The notes beneath the pieces were generated by a model. That model had not been told where the DNA came from, did no database searches, and worked only from the letters and a program-made list of their open reading frames with translations. Shown one piece after another: positions 18,538-41,947 of a DNA stretch of 64,000 bases (position 1 is the first letter of the stretch; every line of letters starts with the position of its first letter). The stretch covers positions 785,001 through 849,000 of the forward strand of contig NZ_CP102267.1 in assembly GCF_025148125.1 (NCBI RefSeq), given 5' to 3'. The translations under genes were made by a program, and so were the position numbers. This stretch comes from Blautia wexlerae DSM 19850 (GTDB taxonomy: Bacteria; Bacillota; Clostridia; Lachnospirales; Lachnospiraceae).

Positions 18538-18714
18538 ATGGATAAGAGAAAAGAAAAAAGTATTGGTGAAGTTCTTTCAGAACATGAAAGGGAAGTAATA
18601 AAAGTATATAGACAGTTGTCGGAAGATAATAAATTGACAATAGATATTTTGATTATGAGACTTAGAAAGCATGAACAGGAGGTGATGACTGATGCTGAAA
18701 GTGGCAATATGTGA
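18538..18714 (+). CDS. Short regulator tail-domain protein preceding a LytTR regulator
   Basis: 58 residues from the ATG at 18538. It has no helix-turn-helix, but residues about 13-50 (HEREVIKVYRQLSEDNKLTI...RLR) match the C-terminal tails of the two Xre proteins at 22026 and 37858, which share I-x-x-x-Y-R-x-L-D/E...N-(R/K)-x-T. It overlaps the LytTR regulator gene by 23 bases; AGGAGG at 18678 lies inside it. Like its longer relatives it is placed just before a response regulator, so the tail may be an interaction domain. A start at 18517 is possible. Confidence 0.6.
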   Translation: MDKRKEKSIGEVLSEHEREVIKVYRQLSEDNKLTIDILIMRLRKHEQEVMTDAESGNM

Positions 18715-19411
18715 TGATAACGAAGATTTTACTAAGAGGATTGAGGAGCATACAGAGCATTTTTCGCATGAAAATAATATAGATGTAAAAGTTAGTCGTT
18801 TTATAAGTGGTCCCCAATTGATGTTATCATATTTTTATAGAAAATATGATATAATATTTTTGGATATTACAATGCCAGAAATGGATGGTTTTGAGACTGC
18901 AGAAAGAATACGCAAGATAGATTCAAATGTTGTTATTATATTTTGTAGTTCATTTTATAATCTTCCAAATTTACAGAAATGTGTACAAGTTGAAGCAAAA
19001 GATTTTTTGGGAAAACCTGTGCTATATAGAAAAATTGAACTGATTTTGAATAAGGTCTACAATAAAAAAATTATAAATGCTGAGGAAAAACTTATGCTGA
19101 AAACCCAAGAAGGAATTATTGCATTACAAATTTCCGACATTATTTATATGGAAACTGAAAATAAGGCAGTTGTAATACATACAGCAAATAGAAATATTGT
19201 TACGTATAAAAAATTATATGAATTTGAGAAAAGATTGGGAGATAGGTTATTTTATCGTTGCCATCAGGGGTATTTAGTTAATTTAGATTATGTAGAACGA
19301 GTACAGGAGGATTCATTGATATTGAAGGAAAAAGTCACTATTCCAGTGAGTAAATCCAAAAAGGAAGAACTGCTAAAAAAAATGGCAAAATATGTGGCGT
19401 ATCAGTTATAA
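18692..19411 (+). CDS. LytTR-family response regulator 1
   Basis: 239 residues. The receiver domain (1-125) shows the acidic pair Asp8/Asp9, the phospho-acceptor Asp58 in FLDITMPEMDG, and a Lys in LGKPV. A LytTR DNA-binding domain follows (about 135-235; FYRCHQGYLVNLDYVERVQ). Regulators of this type (AgrA, ComE, BlpR) bind two direct repeats about 21 bp apart, the spacing seen at several promoters in this island. It sits directly upstream of peptide precursor A. No kinase gene is adjacent; the kinase at 23071 may serve both LytTR regulators. Confidence 0.93.
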   Translation: MLKVAICDDNEDFTKRIEEHTEHFSHENNIDVKVSRFISGPQLMLSYFYRKYDIIFLDITMPEMDGFETAERIRKIDSNVVIIFCSSFYNLPNLQKCVQVEAKDFLGKPVLYRKIELILNKVYNKKIINAEEKLMLKTQEGIIALQISDIIYMETENKAVVIHTANRNIVTYKKLYEFEKRLGDRLFYRCHQGYLVNLDYVERVQEDSLILKEKVTIPVSKSKKEELLKKMAKYVAYQL

Positions 19412-19416
19412 GCATT

Positions 19417-19480
19417 TTAAGCATAAAAAAAGACGTTTTATACAATGTTTATTGAGAGCAAGAACAAAAAAATTTATCCT
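19417..19480 (+). promoter_or_regulatory. Likely LytTR-type promoter of precursor A
   Basis: TTAAGCAT (19417-19424) and TTATACAA (19438-19445) are 21 bp apart; 29 bp later is TATCCT (19475-19480) as a weak -10. The predicted transcript start leaves about 25 bases before the precursor ATG, like the other promoters of this set. The match is weaker than at the phospholipase and radical SAM operons. Confidence 0.45.
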
Positions 19481-19511
19481 ATATTATAAAAAACGAAAGG
19501 AGGAATGCCTA

Positions 19512-39261: not shown

Positions 39262-40452
39262 ATGGAGAAAAGATTATTTACCTCAGAATCAGTAACAGAA
39301 GGACATCCGGACAAAATATGTGATGCCATATCAGATGCCATATTGGATGCTCTTATGGAGAAGGATCCAATGAGCAGAGTGGCCTGCGAGACTGCAATTA
39401 CAACGGGTATGGTATTAGTGATGGGAGAAATCACGACCAATGCGTATATAGATATGCAGCAGGTGGTAAGAGAAACGATCAAAGAAATTGGTTATGACAA
39501 TGGAGATTATGGATTTGATGCACATACCTGTGCTGTCTTAACGGCAATTGATGAGCAGTCAGCAGATATTGCTTTGGGCGTGAATAAGGCATTGGAAGCA
39601 AAAGAACACAAAATGTCAGAAGAAGAGCTTGATGCAATTGGTGCTGGGGATCAGGGTATGATGTTTGGTTACGCATGTGACGAAACGAATGAATTTATAC
39701 CATATCCAATTTCACTGGCACACAAATTGACACGGCAGCTTACTCAGGTCCGTAAAGATGGTTTGTTGAATTATTTAAGACCGGACGGTAAGAGTCAGGT
39801 TACTGTAGAATATGACGAAGCAGGTATTCCGCACCGGCTGGATGCAGTGGTTCTGTCAACACAGCATGATCCAGATGTGACACAGGAGCAGATCCATGAT
39901 GATATAAAAAAATATGTATTGGAACCGATTATTCCAACAGAACTGGTAGATGAGAATACAAAATTTTTCATCAATCCAACAGGGCGTTTTGTCATCGGTG
40001 GTCCTCACGGAGATAGTGGTGTAACAGGACGCAAGATTATTGTAGATACATACGGTGGTATGGCACGGCATGGCGGCGGAGCTTTTTCTGGAAAAGACTG
40101 TACGAAAGTAGATCGTTCTGCATCTTATGCTGCTCGTTATGTTGCGAAGAATATTGTGGCTGCAGGTCTGGCAAAAAAATGTGAAATTCAGTTGTCTTAC
40201 GCAATTGGGGTGGCTCATCCGACCTCTATTATGGTAGACACCTTTGGAACTGGGAAAATTTCAGATGAGAGTCTGGTAGAGATGATAAGAAGAGAATTCG
40301 ATCTGCGACCAGCAGGAATCATTCAGATGTTGGATCTCCGCCGTCCGATCTATAAACAGACAGCAGCCTATGGACATTTTGGAAGAAACGATCTCAACCT
40401 TCCATGGGAAAGATTAGATAAGGTAGAAGAACTGAAAAAATATTTGAAATAA
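39262..40452 (+). CDS. metK: S-adenosylmethionine synthetase
   Basis: 396 residues, full length for MetK, which makes SAM from methionine and ATP in the cytosol. Signatures: TEGHPDKICDAISDAILDA at 14-32, GAGDQGMMFGYA near 128, and GGGAFSGKD near 272. A second metK among five radical SAM genes suggests a dedicated SAM supply for them, as SAM is their cofactor or cosubstrate. The 134-base upstream gap is too short for, and shows no sign of, a SAM riboswitch, so it escapes the usual SAM feedback. Ribosome site AAAGGAG. Confidence 0.95.
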   Translation: MEKRLFTSESVTEGHPDKICDAISDAILDALMEKDPMSRVACETAITTGMVLVMGEITTNAYIDMQQVVRETIKEIGYDNGDYGFDAHTCAVLTAIDEQSADIALGVNKALEAKEHKMSEEELDAIGAGDQGMMFGYACDETNEFIPYPISLAHKLTRQLTQVRKDGLLNYLRPDGKSQVTVEYDEAGIPHRLDAVVLSTQHDPDVTQEQIHDDIKKYVLEPIIPTELVDENTKFFINPTGRFVIGGPHGDSGVTGRKIIVDTYGGMARHGGGAFSGKDCTKVDRSASYAARYVAKNIVAAGLAKKCEIQLSYAIGVAHPTSIMVDTFGTGKISDESLVEMIRREFDLRPAGIIQMLDLRRPIYKQTAAYGHFGRNDLNLPWERLDKVEELKKYLK

Positions 40453-40470
40453 TTTATTAGGAGGAAACGT

Positions 40471-41490
40471 ATGGGAAGATACAAAAAGCGAATCTCAAGA
40501 ATTGTGACGATTGCGATGCTGTTTGCATTTCTGGTAGGAAATTCTAATATGGTATATGCTATGGGAGCAACACAAGTTGGATATGCGAGTAAATATATCA
40601 CAGTGAAAGGGAATAATATGCATCTTGCTTTGTATGGAAAATTGGATGTAAGTGGAGAAACATTTGCAGATGAAGGAAAAACCACATTGGTGATGATGCC
40701 GGCTCTGGGAGTTCCATCACCGCATATCTACTTCAAACCTCTGGCACAATCTTTAGATGAGAGTTTTAACATAGTGATTGTAGAGCCGTTTGGATATGGG
40801 CTTAGTGATGTTGCAGCAACGGATCGAACTGTAGATAATATCAATAGTGAATTGAATGCTGCACTGGACACCATGGGAATTAAGCAGTGTGTATTGCTGG
40901 TACATTCGATTTCTGGAGTATATGGACTCAACTTTGTACAGAATTATCCCGAAAAAGTAAAAGGTTTCATTGCTGTTGATAATACGGTATATGATGAAGA
41001 ACTGGCAGAGGCTATGGAAATGGAAAAGAAATATATGCTGCAGGGAATTGATGAATTTCAGAAAATCAAGAATTCTTTTTCTTCTTTGGAAGAATTCCAG
41101 ATGGCACTGAAAACAGATCCAGATAAATATGGGGCAGCATTACCACAGGTTTCCGGGTACACTTATACGGAGAGTGATAGGGAGGAATACATTCAGGCAT
41201 ATTCTTTAAGCAGCAACGATACGATTAGAAATGAAGTGAACGGGATGGATCAATCATTACTCTCTATAAAGAATAAAAAATTCCCATCGGCACTTCCTGT
41301 ATTAACCATGATTTCTTCAGAGAATGTACAAAATGTTCCGGCATGGGAGACTGCTCATAGAAATCAATTGGATTTAGAATCTGGTAATCACCAGTTATAT
41401 ATTGTAAATGGAGGACATTATATCTGGTATACCAATTTAACGCAGGTTGTACAGCTTATCGATGAATGGAGAATAGAGAATCATTTTTAA
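40471..41490 (+). CDS. Secreted alpha/beta hydrolase
   Basis: 339 residues with a signal peptide (about 1-30, MVYA cleavage area). The hydrolase fold shows the nucleophile elbow HSISG in LLVHSISGVYG (near 150), an oxyanion-type loop MMPALGVPSPH, and the catalytic His in NGGHYIWYTN near the C-terminus. The substrate is unknown; peptidases, esterases and lipases share this fold. It follows metK by 18 bases with AGGAGG, so both may be one transcript at the right end of the island. Confidence 0.85.
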   Translation: MGRYKKRISRIVTIAMLFAFLVGNSNMVYAMGATQVGYASKYITVKGNNMHLALYGKLDVSGETFADEGKTTLVMMPALGVPSPHIYFKPLAQSLDESFNIVIVEPFGYGLSDVAATDRTVDNINSELNAALDTMGIKQCVLLVHSISGVYGLNFVQNYPEKVKGFIAVDNTVYDEELAEAMEMEKKYMLQGIDEFQKIKNSFSSLEEFQMALKTDPDKYGAALPQVSGYTYTESDREEYIQAYSLSSNDTIRNEVNGMDQSLLSIKNKKFPSALPVLTMISSENVQNVPAWETAHRNQLDLESGNHQLYIVNGGHYIWYTNLTQVVQLIDEWRIENHF

Positions 41491-41545
41491 AAGGAATCTG
41501 TGTGATGAGATTTCTAAATAAGAGAAAACAGAAGGGAAGTGTAGC

Positions 41546-41947
41546 TTGGGGAAAGTAACTATTTCAACTGTATTGGGATACAAAGAATATGTAGTGGAAA
41601 ATATAAAAAACATCCGGGGAGAGGATGAAGAAAATTCCGATTTTAGGATTTATCCGGATTATCATAAGATTTATAGAGGACAGACGGAGATCGTCTTAAC
41701 GAAAGCAGAGTATGAATTGTTTATGCTTTTGTCAGGGAGACCAGGTGTGATATTTACCAAAGAAAAAATTTTTGAGATTCTTTATAACGAGGAATTGCCA
41801 GAAAGCATTGATAATATTGTGTACTGTCTGGTATCCAGTATGAGAAAGAAAATTGAACCGGAGCTAAAGCAGTGCCGCTATATTAAAACAGTGAGAGGTG
41901 TAGGATATAAGTTTGAAGGAAAAAAGATGGACATCTTTCCAGAATAG
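41546..41947 (+). CDS. Stand-alone OmpR-type winged-helix protein
   Basis: 133 residues starting at TTG 41546 after GAAGGGAAG. The C-terminal two thirds are a winged-helix output domain (LTKAEYELFMLLSGRPGVIF, then YIKTVRGVGYKF); there is no receiver domain. The first 35 residues are unrelated. It may bind DNA constitutively or be the remnant of a response regulator. Confidence 0.75.
   Translation: MGKVTISTVLGYKEYVVENIKNIRGEDEENSDFRIYPDYHKIYRGQTEIVLTKAEYELFMLLSGRPGVIFTKEKIFEILYNEELPESIDNIVYCLVSSMRKKIEPELKQCRYIKTVRGVGYKFEGKKMDIFPE

Follow-up and report, generated by a model that had tools for sequence, protein, structure and literature searches.

Two classes of radical SAM-associated peptides in Blautia wexlerae, a candidate signal and candidate antimicrobials

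Are the small three-cysteine peptides encoded among five radical S-adenosylmethionine (SAM) enzymes in Blautia wexlerae DSM 19850 antimicrobials or signals? The question is raised by positions 18,538 to 41,947 of a 64,000-nucleotide stretch of contig NZ_CP102267.1 (positions 785,001 to 849,000; hereafter the window, by whose numbering features are located, with the strand in brackets), where a preliminary description made from the letters alone had proposed a modified, exported peptide family, perhaps an antimicrobial or a signal. The best answer is likely both, by class, within a real family of ribosomally synthesized and post-translationally modified peptides (RiPPs) that has no curated name. 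Two peptide classes, their gene neighbors, a promoter motif that they share, and a gene order recurring in other genomes are directly observed. From these we consider it probable that class I peptides are a signal switching the cluster on and class II peptides are antimicrobials, both cross-linked by radical SAM enzymes, trimmed by an S8 protease, and exported by an ATP-binding cassette (ABC) transporter; the chemistry, sensing, killing, and immunity in this account we infer from sequence.

The precursor peptides and their two classes

The three short peptide genes lie where they had been placed. P1, a class I precursor and the predicted signal, occupies 19512..19673 (+) and encodes 53 amino acids with the core CSNRTQYCLTDCPWPFDGAYLSGID; the class II precursors and predicted bacteriocins are P2 (31910..32047, +; 45 amino acids, core CGYIRYVCLTDCLPNGSAFINPFE) and P3 (32229..32351, −; 40 amino acids, core CNEIRYDCLTDCIDGSAWLSTLE). 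For P3, the ATG at 32351, with AGGAGG 8 bases ahead, was preferred to the GTG at 32360 chosen by the open reading frame (ORF) tool. Each peptide combines an acidic leader with C-x6-C-L-T-D-C and a tail fitting G-(S)-A-aromatic-(L/I), as described earlier. A profile built from the three recovered them in the organism's own 4.69-Mb genome (E 3.5e-27, 1.3e-25, and 3.0e-23) together with a fourth peptide, C-x7-CLTDC, at G000:C1:884361 (E 7.6e-7); the remaining two rows of that search stood at E 4.4 and 4.9, with no other match, and because the profile separates true matches from rows at E > 4 the motif of the trio is not a chance pattern. A further small peptide gene hidden between the phospholipase-like gene and rSAM3 was considered and dropped, none being visible by eye.

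No curated NCBIfam model scored above its cut-off for the precursors scanned (3 from the window, 27 class II, and 8 class I), which agrees with the proposal that these precursors lie outside known families. Sub-threshold NCBIfam matches of single precursors were taken as chance (HydE 0.0066, ChePep 0.034, AC3_0185 0.035, lectin 0.091, NuoE 0.17, mycofactocin 0.22), and a Pfam match of P1 to Phi_1 (0.064), from a scan covering the three window peptides, was dropped.

The CLTDC motif holds for all three window peptides and proved too narrow for the family: its L and T vary among relatives, so that we abandoned it in favor of the core C-x6-C-x-x-D-C. Across 27 class II and 8 class I peptides, neither the second and third cysteines nor the Asp of CxxDC ever changes, and x7 replaces x6 in three of the 27 class II peptides. 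Database searches returned 266 class II and 114 class I proteins at 90% clustering, from which a regular-expression analysis used 111 of the 114 class I proteins and the 120 listed of the 266 class II proteins. The C-x-C-x-x-D-C frame was fitted by 98/111 class I and 118/120 listed class II proteins, the first spacer being x6 in 97/98 and, among the class II matches listed, 116/118 of these; the non-fitters were 13 class I proteins, mostly cut or frame-shifted, and two class II proteins with one Cys replaced. Among 241 fetched proteins, the Asp was in place in 225/225 peptides fitting C-x5-8-C-x-x-X-C, a count that is partly circular because the profiles came from Asp-bearing rows, and a Glu takes its position in one divergent peptide (C-x7-CSTEC) of a sister locus discussed below (G397). 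Peptides carry three cysteines as a rule and five in some class II members, and a six-cysteine pattern was not found.

The preliminary description had treated the peptides as one family, which stands, and had not seen that this family falls into two classes. Their neighborhoods were compared in loci from Lachnospiraceae bacterium 3-1 (L007), Blautia hansenii (L008, L050, L051), B. massiliensis (L009), Lachnospiraceae isolate C51_74_MI_BP (L010, L053), and B. schinkii (L011, L052), in a further relative (G345), and in a second, smaller effector locus of the own genome at least 27 kb past the window end (L019). Class I has a near-fixed core, CSxRTQxCLTDCPWPFxGAY, and occurs once in each of six main loci; it is followed by rSAM2 in 6/6 loci (by rSAM1-rSAM2 in the window and L007) and preceded by the LytTR regulator RR1 in all five loci showing that side. 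Class II is variable, with several peptides per locus and up to six. It stands after rSAM4-rSAM5 in 7/7 loci showing both (window, L007, L009, L010, L019, L020, and L052; L050 and L051, which stop at contig ends, were excluded from this count), with an insertion sequence in between in L019, and six of these seven loci, all except L009, have a BceB-like permease. The precursor motif thus does occur near related enzymes in other genomes, the co-occurrence that the preliminary description had asked for.

Mean identity in the small, hand-gathered sets of related peptides was higher in the core than in the leader for class I (75.3 vs. 54.5%, 8 peptides) and lower for class II (41.5 vs. 46.7%, 27 peptides), the pattern expected of a fixed signal accompanied by diversifying weapons. 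Class II diversity could also be pherotype diversity, if all of the peptides, class II included, were pheromones in competition, received by the Bce-like pump and its two-component system; a review gives quorum sensing as the function of SCIFF ranthipeptides (PMC8326336). That a single locus carries several dissimilar class II peptides, and that these diverge in step with BceB, better fits weapons with matching immunity, and we regard an all-signal system as improbable.

The family is not confined to these loci. One class I peptide is present in 477 contigs, with a record naming it a Mediterraneibacter gnavus 'pseudouridine synthase,' and one class II peptide in 578 contigs, including Ruminococcus sp. 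AM18-15. The same label is carried in public records by the class I peptides P0169 and P0223 (M. gnavus and uncultured Schaedlerella) and is apparently a misannotation; homologue P0204 bears a precomputed PF27070 annotation.

A shared promoter motif and its candidate regulators

Fourteen promoters from L008, L009, L010, L050, and L053 served to train a 22-bp motif (like GCAATTTATACATAAAATATGG); the window was excluded, and six class II genes judged operon-internal (two in L010, four in L050) were left out beforehand. The motif totaled 283.5 bits (276.2 at the restart number of the controls) against a maximum of 175.8 over 30 shuffles, although one training site scored just 7.5 bits. With both promoter lists drawn after the first motif scans, 13 of 18 held-out cluster promoters reached at least 10 bits after rounding, compared with 0 of 22 control promoters (one at 7.2 bits; six of the 22 from G345).

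In the window, the best site of all 64 kb precedes the rSAM3-exporter-S8-rSAM4-rSAM5 operon (25487..25508, +; at −82, 19.6 bits), and the second of the two best precedes the phospholipase C-like gene (24442..24463, +; −75, 17.3 bits). Further predicted sites stand before P2 (31813..31834, +; −97, 11.6 bits), P1 (19433..19454, +; −79, 11.1 bits), and, as a predicted LytTR-type site, the operon of a small ORF and RR1 (18460..18481, +; −57, 10.9 bits). These five and two others, at 27393 and 37728, make up the seven window sites of at least 10 bits. The site before metK (39174..39195, +; −88) reaches 10.0 bits solely by rounding and lies at −88 in all three examined loci with an intact metK (16.1 bits in L009 and 15.6 in L050), and that before P3 is weak (32406..32427, −; −76, 7.2 bits) and under the 10-bit line. 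Because shuffled sequence also yields sites of at least 10 bits, the weaker sites count by position and not by score. The site at 37728 (−; 12.4 bits) lies 240 bases before RR3, with another at 37707 (8.1 bits).

The candidate regulators flank the class I gene. RR1 (18692..19411, +; PF00072 and PF04397), a response regulator with a LytTR DNA-binding domain, is overlapped by the small ORF (18517..18714, +; 65 amino acids), whose C-terminal part, NKLTI(D/N)ILI.RL..H, is seen again ahead of RR1 in L008 and L009. Downstream of rSAM2 are an HTH_3 regulator (21984..22361, +), the LytTR response regulator RR2 (22368..23078, +), and a sensor kinase with a GHKL domain (23071..24393, +; PF14501, 74.4 bits) and, by eye, a hydrophobic N-terminal half, a layout that we take to be AgrC/PlnB-like. 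A kinase and LytTR regulators therefore occur together with boxes shared by the promoters of the candidate signal and of effector operons, as in a pheromone regulon. We infer that the LytTR proteins bind the 22-bp boxes. In the proposed mechanism, the kinase would sense the exported class I peptide and phosphorylate RR2 and/or RR1, which would then raise expression of class I, class II, the enzyme-exporter operon, the phospholipase-like gene, and metK.

The agr system offers the closest alternative source of a ligand. Like agr, the window has a GHKL kinase and a LytTR regulator; unlike agr, it has no AgrB beside the pair, since the six AgrB matches of the genome all lie outside 785001-849000 (AgrD was not searched for), and its candidate signal is a radical-SAM peptide. 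Given the missing AgrB, class I is the nearest candidate ligand of the kinase. Were all of the peptides bacteriocins in a multi-component cocktail, the LytTR-kinase pair would instead sense an Agr peptide from elsewhere, for which those six AgrB matches would provide, or envelope damage; the G397 sister locus indeed has its own AgrB next to a LytTR regulator and kinase as well as two tandem class I-like peptides, and class I is preceded by a motif just like those of the other regulated genes. Against this, class I is single-copy with a fixed core in the six main loci, lies beside RR1 in all five where that side is visible, and went unfound in the 35 kb of G345 fetched, as did the LytTR pair. 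We therefore judge a purely bacteriocin system unlikely, and retain class I as the probable signal.

In the plantaricin/sakacin-type three-component regulons of lactic acid bacteria, a pheromone gene, a sensor kinase, and LytTR regulators act through boxes before each operon, so that one signal governs several bacteriocins and immunity genes; there, neither signal nor weapons are modified, and both are double-glycine peptides that leave through a transporter with a peptidase domain. The window likewise has a candidate pheromone, kinase, LytTR regulators, shared boxes, several candidate bacteriocins, and putative immunity. It differs in that signal and weapons belong to one radical-SAM peptide family and are accompanied by an S8 protease, a peptidase-less exporter, and metK. 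With short precursors of leader and core, co-encoded radical SAM/SPASM maturases, and conservation across genomes, this is a radical-SAM RiPP system, probably working like a plantaricin-type pheromone regulon, and not a new category.

Maturation, export, and accessory genes

The other components listed in the preliminary description (exporter, S8 protease, FtsX/ABC pump, LytTR regulators, and metK) are all grouped with the peptides, as are the five radical SAM/SPASM genes: rSAM1 (19733..20872, type A), rSAM2 (20880..21944, type B), rSAM3 (25569..26732, type A; 92–99% identical in five relatives), rSAM4 (29392..30510, type B), and rSAM5 (30500..31759), all on the + strand. All five proteins have CX3CX2C, and alignments show SPASM-type cysteines common to them; the Pfam SPASM model passes rSAM3 and rSAM4 only (rSAM1 and rSAM5 fall below cut-off and rSAM2 is not listed), and the NCBIfam SPASM domain model places rSAM5 above cut-off. 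In a tree of 16 enzymes, rSAM2 (100/100), rSAM4 (88/89), and rSAM3 (100/100) each formed a single group, rSAM2 and rSAM4 were sisters, and rSAM1 joined rSAM3 on a long, unsure branch. This grouping suggests that each peptide class is served by a pair of type A and type B enzymes, with rSAM3 perhaps serving both where rSAM1 is missing; the data also suggest that rSAM5 acts on class II alone.

PapB (NF047865) is the best model for rSAM1 to rSAM4 (190.8, 169.9, 197.1, and 202.0 bits), and since these scores fall under its cut-off of 340 the enzymes are relatives of PapB and not members (rSAM5 scores 47.5 bits). PapB forms its bond between Cys and the beta carbon of Asp within CX3D and tolerates CXnD with n from 0 to 6 (PMC9413430). 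The window peptides resemble the substrates of PapB/freyrasin ranthipeptide maturases in their Cys-Asp pairs and differ in having one CX2D per peptide, not six CX3D, with several enzymes per cluster. PapB as the best-scoring model, a gene trio like that of qhp, and the Asp in 225/225 peptides together lead us to predict Cys-Asp thioethers. The type B enzymes (rSAM2 for class I and rSAM4 for class II) and type A enzymes (rSAM1/rSAM3) would join core cysteines to the CxxDC Asp, and rSAM5 would add a further change restricted to class II.

The rSAM5 N terminus is predicted to form a beta-beta-beta-alpha-alpha region (mean predicted local distance difference test score, pLDDT, 90), possibly a RiPP recognition element (RRE): its four best Foldseek matches, weak at E 0.5–1.2, are chains of TbiB1 and McbBCD, which we take to be RRE proteins. 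The full rSAM5 model aligns with TigE from residue 1 and with 5why/5wgg from residue 7–8, and the enzyme resembles MoaA/PqqE-type enzymes.

The ABC exporter (26719..28383, +) has PF00664 and PF00005, with no peptidase domain among those listed, and is followed by the S8 subtilisin-like protease (28403..29395, +), a QhpE-like predicted leader peptidase. This protease is nearest to QhpE (97.3 bits, under the equivalog cut-off of 165), and its D7/H42/N125/S185 are invariant in 7/7 relatives. In the qhp system, QhpD first makes Cys-Asp/Glu thioethers, the leader is then removed by QhpE while still in the cytoplasm, and QhpF exports the product (PMC7876137); radical SAM enzymes, a subtilisin-like protease, and an ABC exporter adjoin one another in the window as in that qhp account, and the S8 protease would similarly cut the acidic leader in the cytoplasm before export. 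Unlike qhp, which serves quinohemoprotein amine dehydrogenase, the window shows no enzyme subunit as substrate. Peptides acting as substrates or cofactor carriers for a nearby enzyme, much as PqqA, mycofactocin, or QhpC do, would account for the QhpE-like protease, the qhp-like set of exporter and radical SAM enzymes, and the MoaA/PqqE resemblance of rSAM5; such peptides should have a partner, and no dehydrogenase-like one was visible by eye among the 18–42 kb ORFs (no dedicated search was run), while class II is variable in a way unlike a cofactor precursor. This we consider very improbable, and secreted signal and antimicrobial peptides remain our preferred account.

Ruminococcin C differs from the window peptides in its peptide frame. 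It was compared as another product of a gut commensal, Ruminococcus gnavus, made with two radical SAM enzymes (RumMC1/2; PMC8188230); the RumMC model gives just 74.7 (rSAM2), 66.7 (rSAM3), and 100.6 (rSAM4) bits of 720. Searches of open-licence papers yielded no description of these peptides among the matches listed, and no paper on CLTDC or on metK with a radical SAM and RiPP cluster; passages of PMC11352710 and PMC13289728 proved unrelated to them.

Class II peptides would hit related bacteria, and the producer would be shielded by a Bce-like pump with its own two-component system: a BceA-like ATPase (32552..33217, +) and a BceB-like FtsX permease (33214..35634, +; PF02687, 27% identical to the L007 pump), both predicted immunity genes, and the adjoining sensor kinase (35774..36823, −) and OmpR/PhoB-type response regulator RR3 (36808..37488, −). 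The extra SAM synthetase gene metK (39262..40452, +), which has two further metK-like counterparts in the genome (83 and 49% identical to it), would feed SAM to the five radical SAM enzymes. An extra metK beside the cluster is intact in the window, L009, and L050, with pieces in L052, L010, and L054. The remaining member of the proposed regulon, the zinc-dependent phospholipase C-like gene (24517..25359, +; PF00882, 48.5 bits, cut-off 26.8), has a signal-peptide-like start by eye and, besides its motif site in the window, a counterpart in G345. Farther along the window are an AbiEi/AbiEii-like pair (44298-46331) and two genes, at 50957-51697 (−) and 48725-50089 (−), that match the PADLOC candidate defense models PDC-M13 and PDC-S01.

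Mosaic loci and the weighing of the evidence

The conserved and exchanged parts of the cluster can be told apart by comparison with L007, in which protein identity to the window is 94–100% from P1 to S8, 87% for rSAM4, and 52% for rSAM5; two of the three class II peptides match at 50 and 60% and the third has no match, followed by BceA at 73%, BceB at 27%, the kinase at 70%, and RR3 at 96%. The weapon, the last maturase, and the pump thus differ as a unit. The rSAM3 and exporter of L008, L009, and L011 are 92–99% identical to those of the window while neighbors are 46–71% identical; the exception is rSAM4 in L011, of which the locus end carries a 55-residue piece at 87%. More distantly, G345 keeps the order rSAM3-exporter-S8-rSAM4-rSAM5-two class II-BceAB, with a phospholipase-like gene and a two-component system, at 55, 44, and 31% identity for rSAM3, rSAM4, and rSAM5; class I, rSAM2, and the LytTR pair were not found in the 35 kb fetched, and no motif site preceded the six promoters tested there. 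By eye, the G345 locus adjoins apparent nitrogenase genes.

The sister locus in G397 (L054, L067; Lachnospiraceae bacterium 3-1, C22:186000-214000) is divergent. It has the two tandem class I-like peptides CTTHKQKCLNDC(V/A)FGGPAISHIN, the C-x7-CSTEC peptide, rSAM1-, rSAM2-, and rSAM5-like enzymes, S8, and Bce-like pumps, and with its AgrB-LytTR-kinase set it may form a bridge between agr and the class I signal.

The 5′ end of the window holds an rRNA operon end and tRNAs, then a phage-type integrase (2214-3428); sortase, primase-like, and actin-like genes are also in the window, a TrbL-like gene lies beside L019, and L051 has a TraG-like gene. The cluster is likely mobile and probably rides on an integrative element. 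At E 1e-60, rSAM3 had no match in plasmids or phages and none in viral contigs. Sampled genomes with the family are few: the class II profile matched the own genome alone in a phylum sample of 398 genomes, and in a family sample of 397 genomes the first profile matched two, the own genome and G345, which are also the two holding rSAM3 (E 1e-80). The class II profile gave three matches in the family sample, the third of which, in G223 (E 3.4e-4, inside a 247-amino-acid frame), was taken as chance, and one scan of 84,980 species genomes for the close-relative pattern gave five records.

Several observations weigh against a class I signal that controls class II weapons. Distinct cores number 65/98 in class I vs. 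59/118 in class II (among the matches listed, 120 of 266); the tandem pair in G397 means that class I is not always single; and a conserved core could equally mark a toxin with a fixed target. L009 has class II without a BceB match, in L051 two class II peptides follow rSAM3- and rSAM4-like genes and the contig stops without showing an rSAM5, and L050 shows no enzymes because its contig ends. As for the motif, the five held-out promoters that miss 10 bits are those of P3 (7.2), two in L007 (2.2 and −6.7), and two in L019; three held-out L052 sites nearly copy L010 training sites; and six of the 22 controls lie within the cluster (HTH1, BceA, HTH2, RR4, abhydrolase, RR5) and were already known to be siteless, so that counting them as cluster promoters gives 13/24. 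Shuffled 24-kb sequence has 0–3 sites of at least 10 bits (20 shuffles; highest 17.9), the window site at 27393 is inside the exporter gene, and G345 also has sites of at least 10 bits. For the chemistry, rSAM1 to rSAM4 reach only 170–202 bits on the PapB model (cut-off 340), the peptide spacing is CX2D rather than CX3D, and disulfides or other links would give identical letters.

Taken as a whole, we tentatively read the cluster as a self-contained, mobile quorum-sensing arms system that may place signal and weapons on one radical-SAM scaffold, a composite we would put at somewhat below an even chance. Duplicated type A and type B maturases would act on a fixed thioether pheromone (class I) as well as on swappable thioether bacteriocins (class II), the pheromone would replace AgrD/AgrB for an AgrC-like kinase, and the extra SAM synthetase would be co-induced so that maturation is fueled on demand; the weapon, last maturase, and pump would be exchanged as a cassette while the signaling half stays. 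A co-regulated metK would be unusual, as a RiPP cluster boosting its own cosubstrate supply. The family is widespread in public sequence, yet no curated NCBIfam model covers the members scanned. If the signal-and-weapon reading is true, gut Lachnospiraceae have a chemically new kind of peptide signal together with an antibiotic repertoire to match, the timing of commensal warfare becomes testable with a single reporter, and nature provides in this family a large collection of cross-linked peptides with three cysteines, along with the maturases paired to them.

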